A stretch of 20,125 nucleotides of DNA from a virus: the IMG/VR virus record IMGVR_UViG_3300022538_000264, positions 1 through 20,125 of that record. One strand, 5' to 3'. The position numbers and the translations under genes were made by a program. Every line of letters starts with the position of its first letter. The first letter of the stretch is position 1. Shown in pieces: positions 2,815 to 12,501 of the stretch. The notes below the pieces were generated by a model. The model was not told the origin of the DNA, ran no database searches, and saw only the letters and a list, made by a program, of their open reading frames with translations.

Positions 2815-3173
2815 CTTTTTATACTCGCTGTAACAACAAATACCTCGTCGAGATCTAATGCATTCTCCCCATTGTATAAATCGTATGTTTCTTCAACGCC
2901 GTTTTTTGTGACTATTGCGGTATCTCCCGGGAGAATGTTACCTGTAATTTTTATAGGATCAAGGATTATTTTGTGTGTTGAGGGATTGTTTATCCGATCC
3001 ATCACAAATTGTTCATTTGCTGATAACTGACCAAATCCGGCAAGACCGTCAAATTTAGTAACAGGACTACCATATTCTGGTTGCCCTGCTGCATCAAACC
3101 CGGTTATCTCACCAAGTCCCTGTATCACAACAGGGGTTTGCATCTCTTCTGCAAAACAATCAAGAAAAGCCAT
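2811..3173 (-). CDS. Head closure (stopper) protein, probable
   Basis: 120 aa, starting MAFLDCFAEEMQTPVVIQGL. Small all-beta-looking protein with turns such as LPGDTAIVTKNGVEETYDLY (residues about 82-101) and a C-terminal strand EVFVVTASIKR. This resembles SPP1 gp16 / lambda gpFII-type head closure proteins, which plug the portal exit after packaging. It lies between the connector adaptor and the HK97-gp10-like gene, as expected. The start overlaps the upstream stop (TAATG). The call is from position plus a general beta-rich pattern; no diagnostic motif is visible. Confidence 0.6.
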   Translation of the reverse strand: MAFLDCFAEEMQTPVVIQGLGEITGFDAAGQPEYGSPVTKFDGLAGFGQLSANEQFVMDRINNPSTHKIILDPIKITGNILPGDTAIVTKNGVEETYDLYNGENALDLDEVFVVTASIKR

Positions 3174-3838
3174 TAGTGACCCCCTTGATACTGTGGAAAT
3201 GCTTTCACAAACCAGGAAGGCATCCCGTATTTATTATCTATCTCTTGATCTTTCCCGGCAAAAGACTTTGATACACCAAGAATAGACTTTGAAGCAAGAG
3301 AATTTGACGGTAAACTGGTCGAAGTCTGATTAATCAAATACTGTATACCCTTTGCAATTGTTGTCTGCATCCCGATAGTTACACCAATAAATAATTGTGC
3401 TGAAACATTGGTTTCTGTAGGGACAACTGACAATTTAATTACCGGGACTGAATAGGTTACACCATCAAACTCAATAGATCCACTATTGTAATAAATCTCA
3501 TCAATATAGGTTTCTGCAGGAATTCCTTCACCCTCGATAAGCTGACCAACTTTCAAATATTCCTCAAGATCATCAATAAAATAATCGTTATTTATTCCTG
3601 AACACCAAACACGACCGGATCTGTATTTATAATTGACACCATTACAAGTAAAGCCATACACAGGCACATACAGGACGTCTACAGTCACATCACCTATTAT
3701 CTGGTCGTTATACCTGTTATTTGTGATATCCTTCACCTTAGAGTCGATTATCGGTATTTGTGCGGTTATTACTGCATCCTGTGAAGTGTCCGATATCCCT
3801 AAAAGTGTTTTTGTTTTTGCCAGTGTTATTACTTTCAT
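3173..3838 (-). CDS. Head-tail connector (adaptor) protein, with insert
   Basis: 221 aa. The N-terminus (MKVITLAKTKTLLGISDTSQ, then DAVITAQIPIIDSKVKDITN) and the C-terminal helix (TTIAKGIQYLINQ) look like the gp6/SPP1 gp15 connector family: a short sequence, a helix ending in D..V...T.NRY, and a later long helix. That family is usually 90-200 aa. Here a beta-rich block of about 90 residues (about 52-145, with GFTCNGVNYKYRSGRVWCSG and VGQLIEGEGIPAETYIDEIY) lies between the helices, which suggests an inserted domain. The start overlaps the upstream stop (ATGA). The adaptor docks onto the portal and carries the closure protein. Confidence 0.62.
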   Translation of the reverse strand: MKVITLAKTKTLLGISDTSQDAVITAQIPIIDSKVKDITNNRYNDQIIGDVTVDVLYVPVYGFTCNGVNYKYRSGRVWCSGINNDYFIDDLEEYLKVGQLIEGEGIPAETYIDEIYYNSGSIEFDGVTYSVPVIKLSVVPTETNVSAQLFIGVTIGMQTTIAKGIQYLINQTSTSLPSNSLASKSILGVSKSFAGKDQEIDNKYGMPSWFVKAFPQYQGGH

Positions 3839-4758: not shown

Positions 4759-5916
4759 TTAGCTCAACAGTATAACCGCGTGTTCCGGTTTAACCATCTC
4801 ATAACCCCAGGCAATACCGACAAAGTATGTAACCTGTCTAAACTGCTTGTATATAGCAACTTCAAACGCAAGACCACTAAAAGGATCAACGATAGTCATT
4901 CTGTCCTGTGCCTCATCCCCTTCAGTCGGAAGGGCAGGAAGTCTTGTTGCAAGGACAATAGAGTTTCTATCAAATGCAAGGTTCTGCCCTGTAGAGGTGG
5001 CCCCAACAGTAAGAGCAACGGCTGAAGTGGCAAGAGCAACTTTAAGCCCCGGCCCCGCAAGAACAAGAACGCCAGGAGCGGCAAGGCCTGTTTTAACAAC
5101 GTATTTAGTTGTATCACCGGCAAATGTGATTGTATCACCCGCAAGGATAGTTCCTGATCCAGTAATCAGAGTTATAGAAGTAGCCCCAATCGCATAACCT
5201 GCAGTATCAGAAGTATAAGAAGTTCCTGTTCCTTTTGTATGAGATGGAACCTGATTAGATTCTCCAACCATAAAAGACTGAATTCTTCCAAGTGCTCCGT
5301 TTCTGAGCATGTTATCAGTCCCGGCCTCGTTCACTTTAAATAGGACAGACTGTTTACCTCTCAGGCTTCCGGCGGATGCGTTTGAAAGCACCATATGAAG
5401 ATCTGAAGAAGGAGAACCGTTTACATTAAGAGCCTCAAGAGATCCAGCGAAATCTGACAAATTACCTGCAGTTGCAAAAGGTAATGTCCCGGCAGCACCA
5501 ACGGAGTTGGAGGTTTTTGTATACAGCCCGGCAACATCAACCTCAATCTCGTTTGTCAATTCTCTAAATGCCTGGGCGAATTTGTCTGAAAGAATAGGGT
5601 TAACCAAAGGATTATCGTTATTCCCTAGTCCTTTCTGTTCTTCCCCATTCCACGAAAACTGAACATATCTTGATTTAGATATTGATAAATCAACCTTTCC
5701 GATTGTCTGATCTGCTCCGGTAGGCCCAGTAGCCCCAGGTGTAATATCTGCGGCAGCGAAAGACGGTACAACAGGAGAAGAAACAGTCTGCCCCTTTGCC
5801 GCTCTCTCTATTCCTGAATCTCTACGAACTGCCGGGATAAATCCAACAAGTTCTCTCGATACTGTATCTAACGCATGATAAAGCGTTCCGATAAGCTCTG
5901 TTAATGTATTAGCCAT
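4759..5916 (-). CDS. Major capsid (coat) protein, P22 gp5-like HK97 fold
   Basis: 385 aa, starting MANTLTELIGTLYHALDTVS with an AGGAG box. The build matches the P22-coat family (PF11651 type): N-terminal arm followed by RDSGIERAAKGQTVSSPV, a helical spine (about residues 106-135), an inserted beta-rich I-domain-like block (about 225-312, with SITLITGSGTILAGDTITFA), and a typical end (about 313-384) with AFDRNSIVLATRLPALP, DPFSGLAFEVAIYKQ, IAWGYEMVKPEHAVILL. It forms the icosahedral shell together with the upstream scaffold gene, 13 nt away. It is followed by a strong terminator, as suits the most abundant virion protein. Family naming is from recognised pattern, not from a search. Confidence 0.86.
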   Translation of the reverse strand: MANTLTELIGTLYHALDTVSRELVGFIPAVRRDSGIERAAKGQTVSSPVVPSFAAADITPGATGPTGADQTIGKVDLSISKSRYVQFSWNGEEQKGLGNNDNPLVNPILSDKFAQAFRELTNEIEVDVAGLYTKTSNSVGAAGTLPFATAGNLSDFAGSLEALNVNGSPSSDLHMVLSNASAGSLRGKQSVLFKVNEAGTDNMLRNGALGRIQSFMVGESNQVPSHTKGTGTSYTSDTAGYAIGATSITLITGSGTILAGDTITFAGDTTKYVVKTGLAAPGVLVLAGPGLKVALATSAVALTVGATSTGQNLAFDRNSIVLATRLPALPTEGDEAQDRMTIVDPFSGLAFEVAIYKQFRQVTYFVGIAWGYEMVKPEHAVILLS

Positions 5917-5929
5917 TTGTTAGCTCCTA

Positions 5930-6577
5930 TTAATCGACAACAGAAAAGTCCTTACTAAGAGCAATTTCTCTCTGTTTGTCTATAGTCATTGACTCAAAGT
6001 CAGACCGTTTAATTGTTTTTGCAGGATCAACAGTGCTCGTTTTCGGCTTTGCATCTCCGTACAACTTCTTTATATCGTTACTTACACGCTCATCAACTGC
6101 GGATTTATACCGCTTTGCCTCACTTTCGAGTAAAGAAACAGCTTTATCCCCGTGATTCAGAAATAAATCAACATCACCGCTATAATCAAGCTCTTTTGCT
6201 TTTGCCTGCAATGATGATTTCAATACTGATCGTTTCCCTGTAGCCTCAAGAGCATCAATTCTCTCTTTCTGCTCTCTAATGATCTTCTGTTCTTTTGATT
6301 CTTCAGGGTTGACCTCTTTAATGGTCTTTTCCCTTTCATCTTTTAACAGACCCGGTAATTTATCAGCTGTGAATTTATCATCATGACTTTTTACTGCAAT
6401 AGATACTAAACTATCATTTGCACTTTTCAATAAATCAGTCTTGGCAATAAGTTCCTTTGCTTCTTCTACAGTCTTAACCCCTGCAAGTACATCTAAGCCC
6501 TTTACAAGTGTTTCAATTGCTGCAATATCAGCACCATCTTTCAATCCAGCTTTGATAAGCTTCAGTAATTCTTCCAT
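5930..6577 (-). CDS. Capsid scaffolding protein
   Basis: 215 aa, starting MEELLKLIKAGLKDGADIAA, with AAAGGA before the ATG. Highly charged and mostly helical, with a coiled-coil centre (about residues 82-115, ESKEQKIIREQKERIDALEA) and a helical tail. This is typical of DUF4355/GP20-like scaffolding proteins, which guide coat assembly and are then lost. Immediately upstream of the coat gene, as expected. A short Ser/Thr/Pro-rich linker near 175-190 (DAKPKTSTVDPAKTIKRSDF) precedes the C-terminal helix, which in such proteins binds the coat. Confidence 0.85.
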   Translation of the reverse strand: MEELLKLIKAGLKDGADIAAIETLVKGLDVLAGVKTVEEAKELIAKTDLLKSANDSLVSIAVKSHDDKFTADKLPGLLKDEREKTIKEVNPEESKEQKIIREQKERIDALEATGKRSVLKSSLQAKAKELDYSGDVDLFLNHGDKAVSLLESEAKRYKSAVDERVSNDIKKLYGDAKPKTSTVDPAKTIKRSDFESMTIDKQREIALSKDFSVVD

Positions 6578-6582
6578 TTAAT

Positions 6583-6702
6583 TCATCCTTTCCCGTTCCA
6601 GTACATGCCCGGATCAGTAAAATATTTTATCTTTACATAAGATTCTTTATACTTACCATGATACTACATGTATGTTAGGTTATCAATAGTTAAGTAATCC
6701 AT
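6583..6702 (-). pseudogene. Short reading frame interrupted by an amber codon (possible remnant)
   Basis: Minus-strand frame of 40 codons from ATG 6700-6702 to TGA 6583-6585: MDYLTIDNLTYM, then TAG (6664-6666), then YHGKYKESYVKIKYFTDPGM and YWNGKG. The part after the amber codon looks protein-like. There is no ribosome binding site before the ATG. It could be a decayed gene left where the island joins the scaffold gene, or chance. Confidence 0.3.
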
Positions 6703-6714
6703 GCAATTATAACT

Positions 6715-6740
6715 AAAAAAAAGCCCCCATTATGGGAGCT
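6715..6740 (-). terminator. Intrinsic terminator at the end of the Rha operon
   Basis: Minus strand: AGCTCCC ATAAT GGGGGCT (one G-T pair) followed by eight T's. It lies 25 nt after the stop of the 54-aa gene and separates the Rha operon from the scaffold and coat genes. Confidence 0.88.
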
Positions 6741-6764
6741 ATCTGTAAATATGGTGCAATTTAT

Positions 6765-6929
6765 TTATCTGTATATTTTGCAAAGGTCTTTCATATATCC
6801 TGAACCTTCAACATCATAATATCTTTCTTCATCTTCTCCGAACGCCTGGAAGATTGTTGTTATAGTTGTTGATTCATTAATACCAGCGGCTAATTCCACT
6901 TCACATTTGTACCATTTATTTTCTATCAT
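6765..6929 (-). CDS. Small acidic protein, unknown
   Basis: 54 aa, starting MIENKWYKCEVELAAGINES and ending SGYMKDLCKIYR. The ATG has an AAAGGA box. The gene is the third and last in the Rha operon, 12 nt after the previous stop and 25 nt before a strong terminator. The order of small beta-like segment, acidic EDEERYYDVEG and C-terminal helix gives no recognised family. Confidence 0.68.
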   Translation of the reverse strand: MIENKWYKCEVELAAGINESTTITTIFQAFGEDEERYYDVEGSGYMKDLCKIYR

Positions 6930-6941
6930 TCTATTTATCCT

Positions 6942-7214
6942 TTATCTCTGTATACTGTTTATCCCTTTAATTATAGCCCTATATATTTTTGCTTGCTGTT
7001 GGCAAATCTTTTTTTCTTTCTTTGCTAATTCACCGCAATGCAAATCCGATGTTTTCTCACCCCAAGTGTTTATACCGGATTTAGCTGTCGCAAGCTCTCT
7101 TTTATAAAAGTTCACCATTGTATCAACAAGATACCCGCCGTCCATCTTTTGATGTTTTACATATAGGTTCTTTGTCAATTCTAATATTTTTGAATATGGA
7201 TCTATATACTTCAT
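6942..7214 (-). CDS. Unknown protein in the Rha operon
   Basis: 90 aa, starting MKYIDPYSKILELTKNLYVK. Helical and basic, with KKEKKICQQQAKIYRAIIKG near the end. The start has a GGAGA box and overlaps the Rha stop as ATGA, so the two are translationally coupled. No known family seen. Co-expression with the regulator suggests a partner role, but that is inference only. Confidence 0.7.
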   Translation of the reverse strand: MKYIDPYSKILELTKNLYVKHQKMDGGYLVDTMVNFYKRELATAKSGINTWGEKTSDLHCGELAKKEKKICQQQAKIYRAIIKGINSIQR

Positions 7215-7870
7215 TTGATCTCCTTTGTTTCAAAGAGAGGCTTTAATATTGTCTGGATTTCTTTGTACTGTTTATCCATTTCAAGGAGAGGTTTAATAAA
7301 GGCTTCAGCCTGTTCTACTCGTTTTAATTCATCAGGTGTTAAATCGTCTCTGAAGTTTTCGCTGTAGTCAGATGCACATTGGTTCCGACCTGCTCTCCAT
7401 GTGTTCTGTTTATCTTTCAATCCGACAAGATCATAAACCATGTTTGTATAAAGACTATAGGCATGTCCGTGTGTTCTTTTTGGCTCTCCTGACTCCTGTA
7501 CTGCATCGGTTAGGGATTTACGGGTCTCAATGCCTATTGCTCTTGTTATCTCCTGTTTCTGAATATAGTCCCTCATCTTGAAGAACTCTTTTACAAGCTT
7601 CTTTTTAAACTTCTTCACCTTGTCGCTGTTCTTCATAAAGGTTGTAAGTAATGTGGCTTGCTGTTCATTCAGCATATACAGAGTCTTAGGCCTCCCACCT
7701 GACTTTTCGGGTTTAGTGATTTCAAATCGCATAACCCCAAACTCTTCAAGATCCTTATAATGATTAGTTATCAATCTTGTAATAGATCTTCTTTCTATGT
7801 CTGCCAACAATGCCAGACCCTCAGAATCAATAAAACACTTCTTGTTCTCTACTTTTATTATATCACTCAT
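7211..7870 (-). CDS. Rha family phage regulatory protein
   Basis: 219 aa. The first half matches the Rha (phage_pRha) pattern: DSEGLALLADIERRSITRLI (about residues 16-35), then FEITKPEKSGGRPKTLYMLN, then EQQATLLTTFMKNSDKVKKF (about 69-88) and LVKEFFKMRDYI. A second helical domain follows (about 125-215, HAYSLYTNMVYDLVGL, LTPDELKRVEQAEAFIKPLL). Rha proteins are phage regulators linked to control of lytic growth in hosts with altered IHF; the exact target here is unknown. The start ATG lies exactly 6 nt after a TATAAT with no ribosome binding site, suggesting a leaderless mRNA. It is transcribed away from the plus-strand gene cluster. Confidence 0.85.
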   Translation of the reverse strand: MSDIIKVENKKCFIDSEGLALLADIERRSITRLITNHYKDLEEFGVMRFEITKPEKSGGRPKTLYMLNEQQATLLTTFMKNSDKVKKFKKKLVKEFFKMRDYIQKQEITRAIGIETRKSLTDAVQESGEPKRTHGHAYSLYTNMVYDLVGLKDKQNTWRAGRNQCASDYSENFRDDLTPDELKRVEQAEAFIKPLLEMDKQYKEIQTILKPLFETKEIK

Positions 7871-7876
7871 AGTATG

Positions 7877-7906
7877 ATTATACAGTTATGTGTTATTTCA
7901 CGTCAA
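7877..7906 (-). promoter_or_regulatory. Rha promoter (TTGACG-N18-TATAAT)
   Basis: Minus strand -35 TTGACG (7901-7906) and -10 TATAAT (7877-7882), spacing 18. The ATG follows after 6 nt, so +1 should fall on the start codon. An ATAACACA motif (7889-7896) lies in the spacer. Confidence 0.7.
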
Positions 7907-7919
7907 TGTTATTATTGAC
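7902..7919. promoter_or_regulatory. Inverted repeat GTCAAT-N6-ATTGAC over both -35 boxes
   Basis: The arms 7902-7907 and 7914-7919 are perfect and cover parts of the -35 boxes of the two divergent promoters. It could be an operator for a shared repressor, or simply the by-product of two back-to-back -35 elements. Confidence 0.4.
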
Positions 7920-7943
7920 ACTTTATGCATGATTCTGTATAAT
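7915..7943 (+). promoter_or_regulatory. Consensus sigma-70 promoter for the plus-strand cluster
   Basis: TTGACA (7915-7920), 17 nt, TATAAT (7938-7943): a full match to the consensus with ideal spacing. Expected start near 7950, giving a leader of about 75 nt before the ATG at 8026. Confidence 0.85.
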
Positions 7944-7977
7944 TTATTTAGGTGTGATTTTAAATCGCATCTTGAAG

Positions 7978-8000
7978 GTTAATCACTTGAAATGATTAAC
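7978..8000 (+). promoter_or_regulatory. Hairpin in the 5' leader of the plus-strand cluster
   Basis: GTTAATCA (7978-7985), 7-nt loop, TGATTAAC (7993-8000): a perfect 8-bp stem located 25 nt before the start codon. It could stabilise the mRNA or be a protein site; there is no U-run, so it is not an intrinsic terminator. Confidence 0.5.
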
Positions 8001-8025
8001 TCAACAATGAGTAAAAGGAGAGATT

Positions 8026-8292
8026 ATGATACCAATACATTTTAAAGAGGCAACCATTGAATTAAAAAAGCCTCCAACAATGACAGATGAAGAATGTTCA
8101 AGCCTGTGGATATATAGCCAGAATGGGACATGTATAAGTTTGTGGACAACTTCACTATGGGAAAGGATAATGTTTCTATTTCATGGGCATGTATGGATAG
8201 GGATAATGTCAGGGGATACACAACCCCCTATATGGCTTGATTCTAAAAATTCATTATTTGAAAAACCAAAGAAAAACAGCCGTAGTGTTTAG
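8026..8292 (+). CDS. Small conserved-looking phage protein, unknown function
   Basis: 88 aa, starting MIPIHFKEATIELKKPPTMT. The ATG has an AAAAGGAG box. The pattern M.PI.FKEA, MTDEECSSL, then a hydrophobic SLWERIMFLFHGHVWIGIMS (about residues 44-63) followed by GDTQPPIWLD (about 64-73) recalls a family of small proteins with no known function seen in phages and plasmids of several phyla; this comes from memory, not a search. The hydrophobic part is short and contains charges, so membrane insertion is uncertain. First gene of the plus-strand cluster, expressed from a consensus promoter, so probably made early and strongly. Confidence 0.75.
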   Translation: MIPIHFKEATIELKKPPTMTDEECSSLWIYSQNGTCISLWTTSLWERIMFLFHGHVWIGIMSGDTQPPIWLDSKNSLFEKPKKNSRSV

Positions 8293-8306
8293 GCAAGGAG
8301 CTAATT

Positions 8307-8486
8307 ATGAAAACAAGAAAAGTTAAAGTAAAAAAGATTAAAATGTCTCTACGGGATCTATTCGCTTGTCATGCAATTTCTGTAGGGATTCTTTCAGACA
8401 AAAAGACAACTTATTACACTTATTGTGATGCGGCTAAACAGGCTTACGAAATCGCTGACGCGCTCATTGATGCGAGAAAAGGATAA
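8307..8486 (+). CDS. Small basic protein, unknown
   Basis: 59 aa, starting MKTRKVKVKKIKMSLRDLFA. The ATG at 8307 has an AAGGAG box 6 nt upstream and follows the previous stop by 14 nt. The first 12 residues are strongly basic. The rest (RDLFACHAISVGILSDKKTT, CDAAKQAYEIADALIDARKG) is helical. A basic N-terminal tail could bind nucleic acid, but nothing more can be said. Confidence 0.62.
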   Translation: MKTRKVKVKKIKMSLRDLFACHAISVGILSDKKTTYYTYCDAAKQAYEIADALIDARKG

Positions 8487-8490
8487 TATT

Positions 8491-8637
8491 ATGGATAATA
8501 AAAGATGGAGCAGATTGCATGATGAGAAAGAGCGTCTTGAATCTGAAATTGAAGCTTTGGTTAATAAATTATCATCAAAAGAAGTGGAACTGGTAGAAGT
8601 TAATCAGGATCTCGATGATTTTAACATTGAAAAGTAG
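8491..8637 (+). CDS. Small coiled-coil protein, unknown
   Basis: 48 aa, starting MDNKRWSRLHDEKERLESEI. The start at 8491 is preferred over an upstream in-frame ATG at 8425, because it follows the previous stop by 4 nt and has an AAAGGA box. Residues about 8-45 form one heptad-like helix (EKERLESEIEALVNKLSSKE, then LVEVNQDLDDFN), so it probably forms a dimeric coiled coil. Confidence 0.68.
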   Translation: MDNKRWSRLHDEKERLESEIEALVNKLSSKEVELVEVNQDLDDFNIEK

Positions 8638-8668
8638 TATTTAGTTATCAAATATAAGGTGGTAGAGA

Positions 8669-8845
8669 ATGAGTGAAGAACAAAAAGAAAAATGTCCTAA
8701 ATGTGGCGCTGATGTCAGATATTATCATTTAAGTACAAGGATGACGGGTACGATGTGGACTGCAACCGATGTTAGATGTTCAAAGAAATGTTCTGGGTTT
8801 GATATAATTAGGCATATTGATCACGCCCCGACTAAAAATCAATAA
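8669..8845 (+). CDS. Small zinc-ribbon protein
   Basis: 58 aa, starting MSEEQKEKCPKCGADVRYYH. It has CPKC (C9, C12) and a second pair CSKKC (C37, C41), a treble-cleft or zinc-ribbon-like arrangement. Zinc-ribbon proteins of this size occur widely in phages as nucleic-acid or protein adaptors. The ATG has a GGTGG-type box. No specific family seen. Confidence 0.68.
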   Translation: MSEEQKEKCPKCGADVRYYHLSTRMTGTMWTATDVRCSKKCSGFDIIRHIDHAPTKNQ

Positions 8846-8879
8846 TACAATCTAACTACTAAGAGATTAAGGAGAGGAT

Positions 8880-9041
8880 ATGAGAATCTTTAAATTGGTG
8901 ATTGCCTTTATCTTGATCGCTTTAGGGGTTGCAATAGCTGTAATCTCTGTTTTTGGGATATTTACTCATATAGAGGGATCATCTGAAGCGTGCACTACTG
9001 GCGTTTTAATTGCTGGGATAGGATTTATTATAAAACTATAG
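8880..9041 (+). CDS. Small membrane protein with two TM segments
   Basis: 53 aa, starting MRIFKLVIAFILIALGVAIA. Two hydrophobic stretches: about residues 4-27 and about 38-52 (CTTGVLIAGIGFIIK). The start has an AAGGAGAGGAT box. A short hairpin membrane protein could act as a superinfection-exclusion protein or a holin-like protein; no evidence in the sequence favours one. It lies in an early-type cluster rather than in a lysis module, which argues somewhat against a holin. Confidence 0.6.
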   Translation: MRIFKLVIAFILIALGVAIAVISVFGIFTHIEGSSEACTTGVLIAGIGFIIKL

Positions 9042-9067
9042 AGCTAACTATTATTAAGGAGAGATAT

Positions 9068-9295
9068 ATGATTGATTTTGATGATACTGTAAAAGAAATT
9101 CTTGGTAGGCCTAATTTTACTTGCGCAAAGATTGCAGAAAGATTGAGGGGTAAAGGCTTAGTTATAGAAAATAAATCAGAAGCAGAACAGGCAAATGTTT
9201 TATACTGGCTTTTAACTATGTATGAAAAGCATGGTTGTGAATGGAGGACTGAAGGGGATAAGTTTCTTAATGATCCTGATTCCGTAATAGCATAA
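9068..9295 (+). CDS. Small soluble protein, unknown
   Basis: 75 aa, starting MIDFDDTVKEILGRPNFTCA. The start at 9068 is chosen because it has an AAGGAGAG box; an in-frame upstream ATG at 8990 lies inside the previous gene. Helical with a central IAERLRGKGLVIENKSEAEQ and an end YEKHGCEWRTEGDKFL. It resembles small helix-rich proteins with a wHTH-like pattern (a helix, a LRGKGL turn, then a helix), which is only a weak hint. Last gene of the plus-strand cluster; a strong hairpin follows 17 nt later. Confidence 0.68.
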   Translation: MIDFDDTVKEILGRPNFTCAKIAERLRGKGLVIENKSEAEQANVLYWLLTMYEKHGCEWRTEGDKFLNDPDSVIA

Positions 9296-9311
9296 TAATC
9301 CAATCACTTAC

Positions 9312-9354
9312 TAACTATACGGCCTGACTTATTAAAAGTTAGGCCGTATAGTTA
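9312..9354. terminator. Long hairpin between convergent genes, probable bidirectional terminator
   Basis: Arms 9312-9328 and 9338-9354 form a 17-bp stem (one G-T pair), loop TTATTAAAA. It lies between the ends of the plus-strand cluster and the HNH gene and overlaps the HNH stop codon. Neither side has a clear T-run, so termination strength is uncertain; blocking antisense read-through or protecting 3' ends are alternatives. Confidence 0.6.
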
Positions 9355-9996
9355 TAGTTGTATCCCTAATTCATTACAAATATATTTTAATTTTTCTTGC
9401 CAACCTTCCTGGAGATGATTTGATTTCTTTATATTGGCATCCCTGGTTAATGGTTGTAGATTCCTGTAGTTAAAACAAACTAATTGATGATCTTCCAGGA
9501 GAAAATTGAAATAGTCATAAGGGATTATATGATCAATTGTGTGGATCTTTTCATCATATCCGATAGATACAAGGTAATCATAAGCTTGCTTTCCTGTACA
9601 GCCTAATAGCCTGTTTATAACTACAGCCCTATCACCTTTCTTGTATTTAATGGCTTTCCTTAATGCGATCCTGGCATCTTCTTTAATTCTGAAAGCTTCA
9701 TCATTCTTTAATCTGTCTTTTCTTTTTTGGTATAATCTCGCTTTATTCTCTTGATGCCATTTAGCACCATTTTTTTTATATTGGCCTTTATTCTCTACGT
9801 AATAATCCTCATGATACTTTTTATATCTTTTCTGCTGACATTTTTTACAGGTAGCCCTATATCTTCTATAAGAATACTCCCTATCACCTTGTTTATGGTT
9901 TGATATGAAAATATGGTAATTATCAACGCTTTGCTCTACCTGGCAAACTTTACATTTAATTTCTGTAATTCCTACTGTTCTATCTTTTATATCCAT
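9352..9996 (-). CDS. Free-standing HNH homing-type endonuclease
   Basis: 214 aa from the preferred start. Zinc-binding pairs CKVC (15, 18) and CKKC (50, 53) precede a basic helical linker (about 55-125). The HNH core is at about 153-195: TIDHIIPYDYFNFLLEDHQL with D155-H156, then N179 and the end DANIKKSN. Such enzymes nick or cut DNA and often move between phage genomes. It lies between the MuF-like head gene and the plus-strand island. An upstream in-frame ATG at 10026 lacks a ribosome binding site; the ATG at 9994-9996 lies exactly 6 nt after a TATAAT with a TTGATA -35, so a leaderless mRNA from this start is likely. The 11 stop-side bases are part of a hairpin. Confidence 0.82.
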   Translation of the reverse strand: MDIKDRTVGITEIKCKVCQVEQSVDNYHIFISNHKQGDREYSYRRYRATCKKCQQKRYKKYHEDYYVENKGQYKKNGAKWHQENKARLYQKRKDRLKNDEAFRIKEDARIALRKAIKYKKGDRAVVINRLLGCTGKQAYDYLVSIGYDEKIHTIDHIIPYDYFNFLLEDHQLVCFNYRNLQPLTRDANIKKSNHLQEGWQEKLKYICNELGIQL

Positions 9997-10002
9997 AGCA
10001 AT

Positions 10003-10031
10003 ATTATATGACATAAACGACATCATATCAA
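10003..10031 (-). promoter_or_regulatory. HNH gene promoter (TTGATA-N17-TATAAT), leaderless
   Basis: Minus strand -35 TTGATA (10026-10031), 17 nt, -10 TATAAT (10003-10008), then 6 nt to ATG 9994-9996. It starts inside the end of the MuF-like gene, so the HNH gene can be expressed on its own. Confidence 0.7.
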
Positions 10032-11152
10032 CTAACGATTCTACCGCTCTTATTAAACTTTAAATTGTGAGTTTTCATCCAGTCATTGAAGTTCTTATAT
10101 GTTGCCTCTTCAATCTCCCCTGTAACAGGGTTCCTTCCTGTTCGCCGCCCTGGTGGGGTATCTGGAACTACGTCTATTGACCGTCCCCTATCCTGGATGT
10201 CCCACCTTGCTACTCCAGAATTCCCTATAATCATAACTTTTAATCCCCCTGGATAAATAAAAGGCTTATCACATTCAACTTCCTGGCCATCAATTTGTGC
10301 TGACTGTTCCCGGGTTCTATTGTCCAGAGTCTCTATTGCTTTCCGTTTTAGCTCCAACCCTGCATCAATAGCGGCCTGTGTGTTGGCAAACGCTCCGCTG
10401 TTCATATTTCTTGCGCCCTCTGTTCTGGCTATCCTCAGAGCGTTTGAAGCTGATACTTCCATTCTCTCTTTTACATCTGAGGCAATATCTTTGAATACTT
10501 TCTGCAAGTCTTTTGCAGTTTTTACAGATGACTGGCCTTTCAATAATCCTTGTGTAATAACTTCCTGTAATTTCAAGAGGTCTTTTATTCTGTTGTCATT
10601 TAATGTTTTAGCAAGAGTTCCATGTTTTGGGAATAACGGTTTTAAGGCTTTCTTTTGTGCTTTTGATAGGCTATCCCATACTTTAGGTGTGCCTAATACT
10701 GAGGATTCAATAGTTGCTTTATTCAGGACTGCGAAATACTGGAAATCTTTAACTCCCTTGAATGCATCAGCAGAGAACCAGTTAACAGCATACATATTTT
10801 CATAATATTCATTGCTGATCGCCAGTGTGGATGATTCTACCTGTAGCAATCCTGCTTTTCCTGCAGCTTTGTTATATATGGCTGCTATCTGCGATTTGAG
10901 GGAGGCTAAACGGTTAAACTTCACGATCTCATTGTAATAATCTTCTGGCTTAACACCGGTTAAAAACTTCGTTCTGATTGCTTCAAGCTCTTTGGTTATA
11001 TCCTGCCATGCTTTTTTATACTGGTCTGTGATTTTCTTAGAGATCCCGGCTGGAACAGGATTCCCGTCTTTATCCCAGTTCCAGGCACCGATTAAATCCT
11101 GAGTTCTTTGTGTTGATATTTCCTGTAGTTCCTCAAGTGTTGATCCTGCCAT
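10028..11152 (-). CDS. MuF-like minor head protein (head morphogenesis)
   Basis: 374 aa. The MuF domain is at about residues 200-330: SVKTAKDLQKVFKDIASDVK, then SNALRIARTEGARNMNSGAF, then KAIETLDNRTREQSAQIDGQ and the following strand. The motif RTEGARN and the LDNRTR.QSAQ.DGQ segment are hallmarks. MuF proteins sit inside the head near the portal and are ejected or help head assembly. The start overlaps the portal stop (TAATG). The order TerL, portal, MuF is standard; the scaffold should follow directly but is 3.4 kb away behind the inserted island. There is no C-terminal toxin domain; the protein ends after a short basic tail. Confidence 0.9.
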   Translation of the reverse strand: MAGSTLEELQEISTQRTQDLIGAWNWDKDGNPVPAGISKKITDQYKKAWQDITKELEAIRTKFLTGVKPEDYYNEIVKFNRLASLKSQIAAIYNKAAGKAGLLQVESSTLAISNEYYENMYAVNWFSADAFKGVKDFQYFAVLNKATIESSVLGTPKVWDSLSKAQKKALKPLFPKHGTLAKTLNDNRIKDLLKLQEVITQGLLKGQSSVKTAKDLQKVFKDIASDVKERMEVSASNALRIARTEGARNMNSGAFANTQAAIDAGLELKRKAIETLDNRTREQSAQIDGQEVECDKPFIYPGGLKVMIIGNSGVARWDIQDRGRSIDVVPDTPPGRRTGRNPVTGEIEEATYKNFNDWMKTHNLKFNKSGRIVS

Positions 11153-12501
11153 TATTCAGTCTCATCAAATGTTATTGTATTTTGCGGCAATTCACCTTTC
11201 AATAATTCAAGTTCTTTTTCTGCATCCGGTATTAAATCTTTCGGTAAAAACTTAATAGCAGATTCTCTTGATATTATTCCTGTTAGTAGCTGTAATATTT
11301 CTGCCTTTGCTTTTACATCTACCGGAATGTTCCTTTTTGATGTAATGACAGCTTTATAGTCTTCAATGGCAATAGATGCAGTAGAAGCATTATACAGGTC
11401 CCCATACAGTTGTAATCTCCTATCTAATCCTTGCGAAAAATAGGTTTGTATTTGCGATGCTTTAAATTCCATCCCGATTAGCTTAAATGCAATAGCTATT
11501 CCTGACTGGTCACCATTTGCAAAACTTTCGGCTGTCATATCCGGGTCTTTTATTGATTTGTGGAATAATCTTTCAAACCTATCCATTAAATCACTGTAAA
11601 ATTCCTTTATCCCTCCGAACTCTTTTTGCAGATATTCTGGCCAGTGACTTACCTCTTCGCCTAATTCGTCGAGTATGCTTATTTCTCCATCGCTTAGCTT
11701 CTTTGCTAATGCATCCGTAACCTTTTTCCCAAAGAGCATAATCATTGCGTTGAAGCGATCTACCTCATTTAGTGATTTTGATAGTACTTCATCATGAGCA
11801 TCTATCAAGCTTTTCTCTGCTTCAAAATATGCCAATGACCGGCGGTTTGATCTAAAGACATTAACCGGGACTATTTTATATGGATATCTGGTTTCTTCAT
11901 CTTCCCTCATCCACACATCAGAGTCTTTCTTTTTAATCCATGTCTCTTTAAACTCAGGGTAATATATATCTGCTGTAATGGTCTCTTTCTGCTCTGTAAA
12001 ATGGATAGCTGATAATAGCTCTTTCTTAAGATCGGTTGAATGATTAAGCAATATCTCTGAGTTAGGGACAATTTTGTATTCGGCTGTTAATAGCCCTCCT
12101 GGAAGATTCTTTCTGTCAGAAGTCCACCATAATTCATATGATTCACCTTGGTTTAACGATTCTTCATAAAGTTCTGAATTCTCCAGGTCTACTTTATTGT
12201 ATGTGTCCATTGCATCCATATAAGCGATAAAGGGGTCAACAGTTGCTGATACCTCTTCTTTAACTTCTACCTCTTCGTATGAGGTTTTAACATCCCCGGC
12301 CCGTCCAGCATATCCGGCCATGTCTTCAACGGCTGATTTAGCCAAAGGTGTCGGGATTCTATTGTCAGGAGCTTTTCCGGCTTTCTTGTCCAGAATCGCA
12401 GGATTATTCCCGATGACATACCGCTCATTCTCTGCTATTGTCATGCGCTTTGATTTCATCGCACCATATAATTTATCTAATTCTTTGCTATTTACAGCCA
12501 T
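11152..12501 (-). CDS. Portal protein (SPP1 gp6-like)
   Basis: 449 aa, starting MAVNSKELDKLYGAMKSKRM with an AAAGGGG box. It matches the SPP1 gp6 family pattern: N-terminal YVIGNNPAI and NRIPTPLAKSAVEDMAGYAG (about residues 27-66), a central strand block with EETRYPYKIVPVNVFRSNRR (about 205-225), and the conserved helical stem SGIAIAFKLIGMEFKASQI (about 335-353). The portal is the dodecameric DNA gate at one vertex, powered by TerL during packaging. Between TerL (11 nt away) and the MuF-like gene. Length is normal for the family (about 450-500). Confidence 0.9.
   Translation of the reverse strand: MAVNSKELDKLYGAMKSKRMTIAENERYVIGNNPAILDKKAGKAPDNRIPTPLAKSAVEDMAGYAGRAGDVKTSYEEVEVKEEVSATVDPFIAYMDAMDTYNKVDLENSELYEESLNQGESYELWWTSDRKNLPGGLLTAEYKIVPNSEILLNHSTDLKKELLSAIHFTEQKETITADIYYPEFKETWIKKKDSDVWMREDEETRYPYKIVPVNVFRSNRRSLAYFEAEKSLIDAHDEVLSKSLNEVDRFNAMIMLFGKKVTDALAKKLSDGEISILDELGEEVSHWPEYLQKEFGGIKEFYSDLMDRFERLFHKSIKDPDMTAESFANGDQSGIAIAFKLIGMEFKASQIQTYFSQGLDRRLQLYGDLYNASTASIAIEDYKAVITSKRNIPVDVKAKAEILQLLTGIISRESAIKFLPKDLIPDAEKELELLKGELPQNTITFDETE

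Follow-up and report, generated by a model that had tools for sequence, protein, structure and literature searches.

A moron-like accessory cassette with a probable six-gene cargo operon between the minor head and scaffold genes of a phage with a P22-type coat protein

In P22-like phages, the immunity I (immI) region is part of an accessory block known as the "ant moron", which may be missing altogether or comprise up to six genes, depending on the phage (PMC2629481). In SPP1, morons 8 to 10 are located between the MuF gene 7 and the scaffold gene 11 and are bracketed by transcription signals (PMC6316719). These two systems and the free-standing HNH homing endonucleases of phages are the closest known counterparts of a locus in a 20-kb virus record, the whole of which (20,125 nucleotides) was analyzed here and is termed the window. 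The structural genes of the window, encoding the small and large subunits of terminase, a portal protein, a minor head protein of the MuF type, a scaffold protein and a P22-type coat protein, lie on the minus strand. A first-pass annotation had singled out a 1.4-kb group of six tiny plus-strand genes, here termed g1 to g6, and likened it to moron or host-takeover/anti-defence sets. Our analysis indicated that g1 to g6 are the central operon of a larger unit, an insert of ten genes that also contains an HNH endonuclease gene, a divergent gene for a regulator of the Rha/antirepressor family (rha) and two small ORFs (Table 1).

Table 1. Features of the insert, with positions in the window
Feature	Position	Strand	Description
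Whole accessory insert	6714-10026 (~3.3 kb)		Between minor head (MuF) and scaffold genes
Intrinsic terminator, right border	6714-6740	-	8-bp stem + T8; conserved in L012 and L139
u54	6765-6929	-	54-aa ORF, rha transcript
u90	6942-7214	-	90-aa ORF, rha transcript
rha (Rha-like regulator)	7211-7870	-	PF09669 above Pfam cut-off
Divergent promoter of rha	7877-7906	-	TTGACG-18-TATAAT, 11/12, then CATACT and ATG (7870); predicted leaderless
Palindrome GTCAAT-N6-ATTGAC	7902-7919		Spans both -35 boxes; candidate operator
Sigma70 promoter of g1-g6	7915-7943	+	TTGACA (7915-7920), 17-bp spacer, TATAAT (7938-7943), 12/12; predicted start ~7950
Leader with two hairpins	7951-8001	+	7951-7971 and 7977-8001
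g1	8026-8292	+	88 aa; member of phage family phrog_25433/11885/34105
g2	8307-8486	+	59 aa, basic, net charge +7; C-terminal domain phrog_2201
g3	8491-8637	+	48 aa, heptad pattern, predicted coiled coil
Linker 5' of g4	8646-8671	+	TATCAAATATAAGGTGGTAGAGAATG; 26/26 bp identical to L139, where a different gene follows
g4	8669-8845	+	58 aa, CxxC + CxxxC; possible zinc-binding protein
g4/g5 linker	8850-8870	+	20/21 bp common to L139
g5	8880-9041	+	53-aa membrane protein, two hydrophobic stretches
g6	9068-9295	+	75 aa, predicted helical
19-bp stem hairpin	9312-9354		dG -29.9 kcal/mol, z -8.3; between convergent g6 and HNH genes; U-tract weak
HNH/endonuclease VII-like gene	9352-9996	-	PHROG match 1.3e-11; start 9996 likelier than 10026
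HNH promoter	10003-10031	-	TTGATA-17-TATAAT, 11/12; -10 ends six bases before ATG 9996; predicted leaderless

The insert resembles the ant moron in being an accessory block within the late genes, with a putative antirepressor-family gene oriented with the late genes and small genes opposite, and in having a content that varies among relatives with syntenic structural genes. The P22 block, however, precedes the tailspike gene, between genes 16 and 9, while the insert lies between the MuF and scaffold genes, contains an attached HNH gene and encodes a Rha-type regulator whose C-terminal domain is of antirepressor type. Ribbon-helix-helix repressors of the mnt/arc type were not found in the window insert, although an ORF of ribbon-helix-helix type occurs in a relative (L139, below). 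The window cassette would work in a similar way, but its position and its mnt/arc content set it apart from the ant morons proper. With the SPP1 morons, the insert shares genome position, bracketing transcription signals and genes of unknown function; the SPP1 segment differs in consisting of three genes and a replication origin, and similar genes were not seen in the window. An SPP1-like origin in the insert was ruled out, as iteron-like repeats were absent. The likeness to free-standing homing endonucleases consists of an HNH gene placed directly after a conserved structural gene, missing from a close relative, and of flanking identity that declines toward the insertion from 0.85 to 0.63, but a far larger cargo than is usual separates the HNH gene from the opposite border. 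The catalytic motif of the HNH protein, DHIIP...NYRNLQPL...N..KSN, appeared intact by eye.

The wider genome was revealed by a 35-kb contig (L009/L010) that is 99.97% identical across the full window. The first-pass annotation had described g1 to g6 as opposite to all structural genes, which holds within the window, but other plus-strand genes exist in this contig. An overlapping pair of minus-strand ORFs (positions 3133-3601 of the reverse complement of the contig), of which one encodes a membrane segment at the N terminus and the other a lipoprotein-like sequence (SGCAS), resembles embedded i-spanin/o-spanin genes and suggests a Gram-negative host. An Rfam search of the window detected no RNA family.

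Relatives more than 80% identical comprised one genome with an empty site (L012) and one with swapped cargo (L139). The portal, minor head, scaffold and coat proteins of L012 are 84 to 88% identical to those of the window (70% for the large terminase subunit), yet just ~0.2 kb separates the stop of the minor head gene from the start of the scaffold gene in L012, which is devoid of all ten insert genes and has kept the right-border terminator plus downstream sequence. In ~25 further relatives with P22-type coat proteins, no comparable multigene opposite-strand cluster was found between the head genes and the scaffold gene, a mechanical listing giving at most a few short ORFs before the latter, and tblastn detected none of the insert proteins. 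Apart from the near-identical contig, no viral contig was found to encode a close copy of the Rha-like, g6 or HNH protein. It was also observed that the window portal (11152-12501) is ~76 residues shorter at the C terminus than the portals of L012 (2846-4423) and L139, both of which have an extra 0.2 kb at the corresponding end of the gene.

In L139, whose large terminase subunit, portal and minor head proteins are 81 to 84% identical to those of the window, the same site is occupied by 2.8 kb, with a zinc-ribbon gene behind the minor head gene, followed by two small opposite-strand ORFs and then by divergent genes. The latter begin with a ribbon-helix-helix-type ORF (48 aa, NikA-like) and a gene for a 233-aa protein that shares 66% identity over its last 32 residues with the end of the window Rha protein. 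Neither opposite-strand ORF is related to g1 to g6. Their promoter is weaker (9/12), indicating that conservation of the locus does not extend to a full-consensus promoter. Despite the unrelated cargo, three linkers are common to the window and L139 in identical order and orientation, namely the two in Table 1 and a stretch of 13 bp over the Shine-Dalgarno sequence and start of g1. As chance matches in 300 shuffles reached 13 bp at most, only the 26-bp linker is decisive alone; the other two draw their weight from order and position. The g4 gene and a 64-aa ORF of L139 can be assigned to the same slot. In L139 (9903-11588) and L141 (7966-9910), the same packaging/portal/MuF module is accompanied by unrelated or very distant scaffold and coat genes, which places the insert at a joint where packaging and capsid modules are exchanged.

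The suggestion of a moron was thus upheld: the cassette has its own predicted promoters (the 12/12 site and two 11/12 sites) and its own predicted terminators (9312-9354, with a weak U-tract, and 6740-6714, with T8), it is an insertion relative to L012, and a different cargo is present at the same site in L139. Base composition did not deviate (34 to 35% GC in the insert versus 35 to 38% in the phage) and hence gave no sign of recent transfer; such deviation is usual for morons but not required. As judged from its sequence, the locus is a clear new example, at a hot spot, of the already known moron phenomenon.

The promoter of g1 to g6 had been described as an exact TTGACA-N17-TATAAT, and a match at all 12 positions was confirmed. 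Markov shuffling of the window (60 shuffles, 1.2 Mb) produced no such site, and this is the only 12/12 site in the 35-kb contig. A scan of that contig detected only three sites of 11/12 or better, all serving insert genes; as ~1 such site per 20 kb is expected by chance, the weight rests on the placement of the three promoters rather than on their number. Strong expression of the operon, as claimed in the first-pass annotation, is predicted from the sequence. That annotation lacked the divergent rha promoter, the HNH gene and the 9312-9354 hairpin, which is probably a two-way terminator. Since the -35 boxes lie within a palindrome and the predicted starts are ~81 bp apart, the two divergent promoters, of g1 to g6 and of rha, probably compete. 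The 8-bp leader hairpin noted previously was located at 7978-8000 (GTTAATCA/TGATTAAC) and is preceded by a further hairpin of 9 bp, not noted before, but folding of the whole leader was just modestly unusual (z -2.3). The arrangement TATAAT-N6-ATG, from which leaderless messages are predicted, was seen at 9996 and 7870, both in the insert, and at none of the other window genes inspected.

The Rha-like protein also matched the anti-repressor family phrog_373 (4e-13), and 51% identity was found between its C-terminal half and the corresponding part of a protein from a relative (G004) that has an AntA antirepressor domain at its N terminus, which assigns the Rha-like protein to the antirepressor/Rha group of phage regulators. 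It was the only cassette protein with a PADLOC match, a weak one. Matches of rha DNA to streptococcal satellites raised the possibility of a satellite-phage element, which was rejected as the insert contains no integrase and sits inside the phage late region.

All six plus-strand ORFs have a Shine-Dalgarno sequence and a codon-usage score above that of all other frames, with support weakest for g4 (z 1.6). The features assigned to their products by the first-pass annotation were largely recovered, namely the basic protein (g2), the coiled coil (g3, a prediction from the heptad pattern) and the protein with two transmembrane segments (g5). For the proposed zinc ribbon of g4, the two cysteine pairs are present but the Pfam match was below threshold. 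The "conserved-looking" 88-aa protein, g1, belongs to a family that was detected at about 35 distinct loci of viruses or prophages and is marked by the pattern M-x-P-x-x-F-P-E-A ... K-P-x-x-M-T-D-E-E-C-G-S-L ... T-Q-P-P-V; 12 of 18 relatives matched phrog_25433, the window g1 itself falling below the threshold. On this evidence g1 is the only widespread gene of the six, a member of an unnamed phage family. Structure prediction, a check proposed with the annotation, yielded a g1 model (pLDDT 77) that matched uncharacterised phage proteins only and had no PDB match, while the fold model of g6 was too weak for a structure search. The g6 protein corresponds to a domain that stands alone here but forms part of larger fusion proteins in Pseudomonas phage PMG1 and Burkholderia phage BgManors32, and the C-terminal domain of g2 is common in phage early-region proteins. 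PHROG matches of the six proteins were all of unknown function bar one weak regulator-tail match. An NCBIfam match of g1 to FosX (E 0.013) was far below the cut-off and was attributed to chance.

Several observations were made on the g1 family. Homologues are unannotated in ctuI7215 (L004:4986-5231) and in Desulfofustis phage LS06-2018-MD02 (L005:4986-5318), and in the latter the start of an annotated dCMP deaminase overlaps the g1 ORF and is, therefore, probably wrong. One sub-branch (L096, L098, L099 and L005) has an additional hydrophobic segment at the C terminus that is probably a transmembrane helix. In L115 to L118 (about 5200-7900), g1 lies between the large terminase gene and a gene for a very large protein (about 880 to 900 aa). 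PHROG matches of neighbours include a head-maturation protease and "Bxa ADP-ribosyl transferase", which may be MuF-toxin-like fusions.

We consider it probable, at about three chances in four, that a self-contained accessory cassette occupies the joint of the packaging/portal/MuF and scaffold/capsid modules, with g1 to g6 as its cargo operon, and that it works in the manner proposed here. The architecture, the empty site, the different cargo and the conserved linkers between unrelated ORFs can be read directly; for transcription, regulation and exchange we infer the following. The cassette would comprise three transcription units, each preceded by a host sigma70 promoter close to consensus, of which the HNH gene and the rha-u90-u54 unit are oriented with the late genes and g1 to g6 run against them, divergent from rha; predicted hairpin terminators stand at the g6/HNH junction and behind u54. 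Host RNA polymerase could read these units independently of late phage activators, and g1 to g6 would, hence, be made early in infection (or from a prophage). The Rha/antirepressor-type protein would bind the 155-bp divergent region and set the balance between both units, as do the immI regulators of P22. Cargo would be exchanged through recombination at the short conserved linkers, and the adjacent HNH endonuclease may help spread by cutting cassette-less genomes near the end of the minor head gene. The six products would serve accessory functions (membrane, nucleic-acid or packaging related) and not be structural parts. A more specific version, in which the locus is a standing cargo slot whose linkers are recombination handles for one-by-one swaps of ORFs between a fixed leader and end, with the HNH protein driving spread and the antirepressor-type protein controlling the cargo, is tentative and rather improbable. 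Nothing usable was found in the literature on linker-based ORF exchange.

It is possible, if on the unlikely side, that the phage is virulent and uses g1 to g6 as an immediate-early operon for host takeover or counter-defence, the consensus promoter recruiting host polymerase on DNA entry and the small proteins inhibiting host enzymes or defences. The consensus sigma70 promoter, the strong Shine-Dalgarno sites and the tiny ORFs, with a membrane protein among them, are consistent with such a role, as is the presence of the g2 and g6 families in early regions of D3-like phages, where the g6 domain of PMG1 lies near a Lar-like gene. However, comparison of g1 to g6 with PADLOC, Pfam, NCBIfam, PDB and Foldseek gave no defence, toxin, inhibitor or solved-structure family, and the g1 family occurs mostly beside packaging genes and not in early operons. 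Integrase, resolvase and HTH_3 repressor genes were not found in the 35- to 37-kb relatives G001 and G002, as might be expected for a virulent phage, but these contigs may be incomplete. A toxin-antitoxin or defence island, for which no family matched, and a plasmid origin of the operon, likewise with no match, were both rejected.

The operon might instead be a lysogenic-conversion or superinfection-exclusion set from a prophage, a counterpart of the opposite-strand mnt-sieA side of P22 immI, though we are inclined to doubt this. The putative antirepressor-family gene along the late genes and the opposite-strand small genes, including one for a two-transmembrane protein, recall immI, as does the gene content of ant morons, given above. 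Against this, integrase was not found in G000, G001, G002 or G004, and the window cassette has no mnt/arc-type repressor.

A role in packaging or head formation, with g1 aiding terminase or portal function and the operon having simply moved, seems distinctly unlikely. A gene for the large terminase subunit lies within ~3 kb in at least 9, and probably at least 13, of the ~35 g1 loci, several of which have g1 directly between this gene and the portal gene or adjoining the former, and 61 larger neighbour proteins included terminases (phrog_38, n = 9; phrog_2, n = 4) as well as portal and head proteins. Other g1 loci, however, are in nucleotide-metabolism regions, L012 and other relatives have no operon at this site, and the window operon runs opposite to the late genes. 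Chance ORFs in a non-coding spacer behind a chance promoter can be dismissed: promoter-like sites were overall no more numerous than in shuffles, but there is only one 12/12 site, Shine-Dalgarno sequences and codon bias were seen for each of the six ORFs, and homologues of g1, g2 and g6 refute this explanation.

The reading of g1 to g6 as the cargo of an accessory cassette makes the locus a worked example of accessory genes entering and turning over where a tailed-phage genome is most constrained, with empty, occupied and swapped versions of one site and with reusable linkers between unrelated genes. The g1 gene points to a widespread, unnamed phage protein family tied to packaging genes. Exclusion, takeover and counter-defence functions usually reside in small cargo genes; if cargo is indeed swapped at linkers, scans for such linkers could collect unknown genes of this class.
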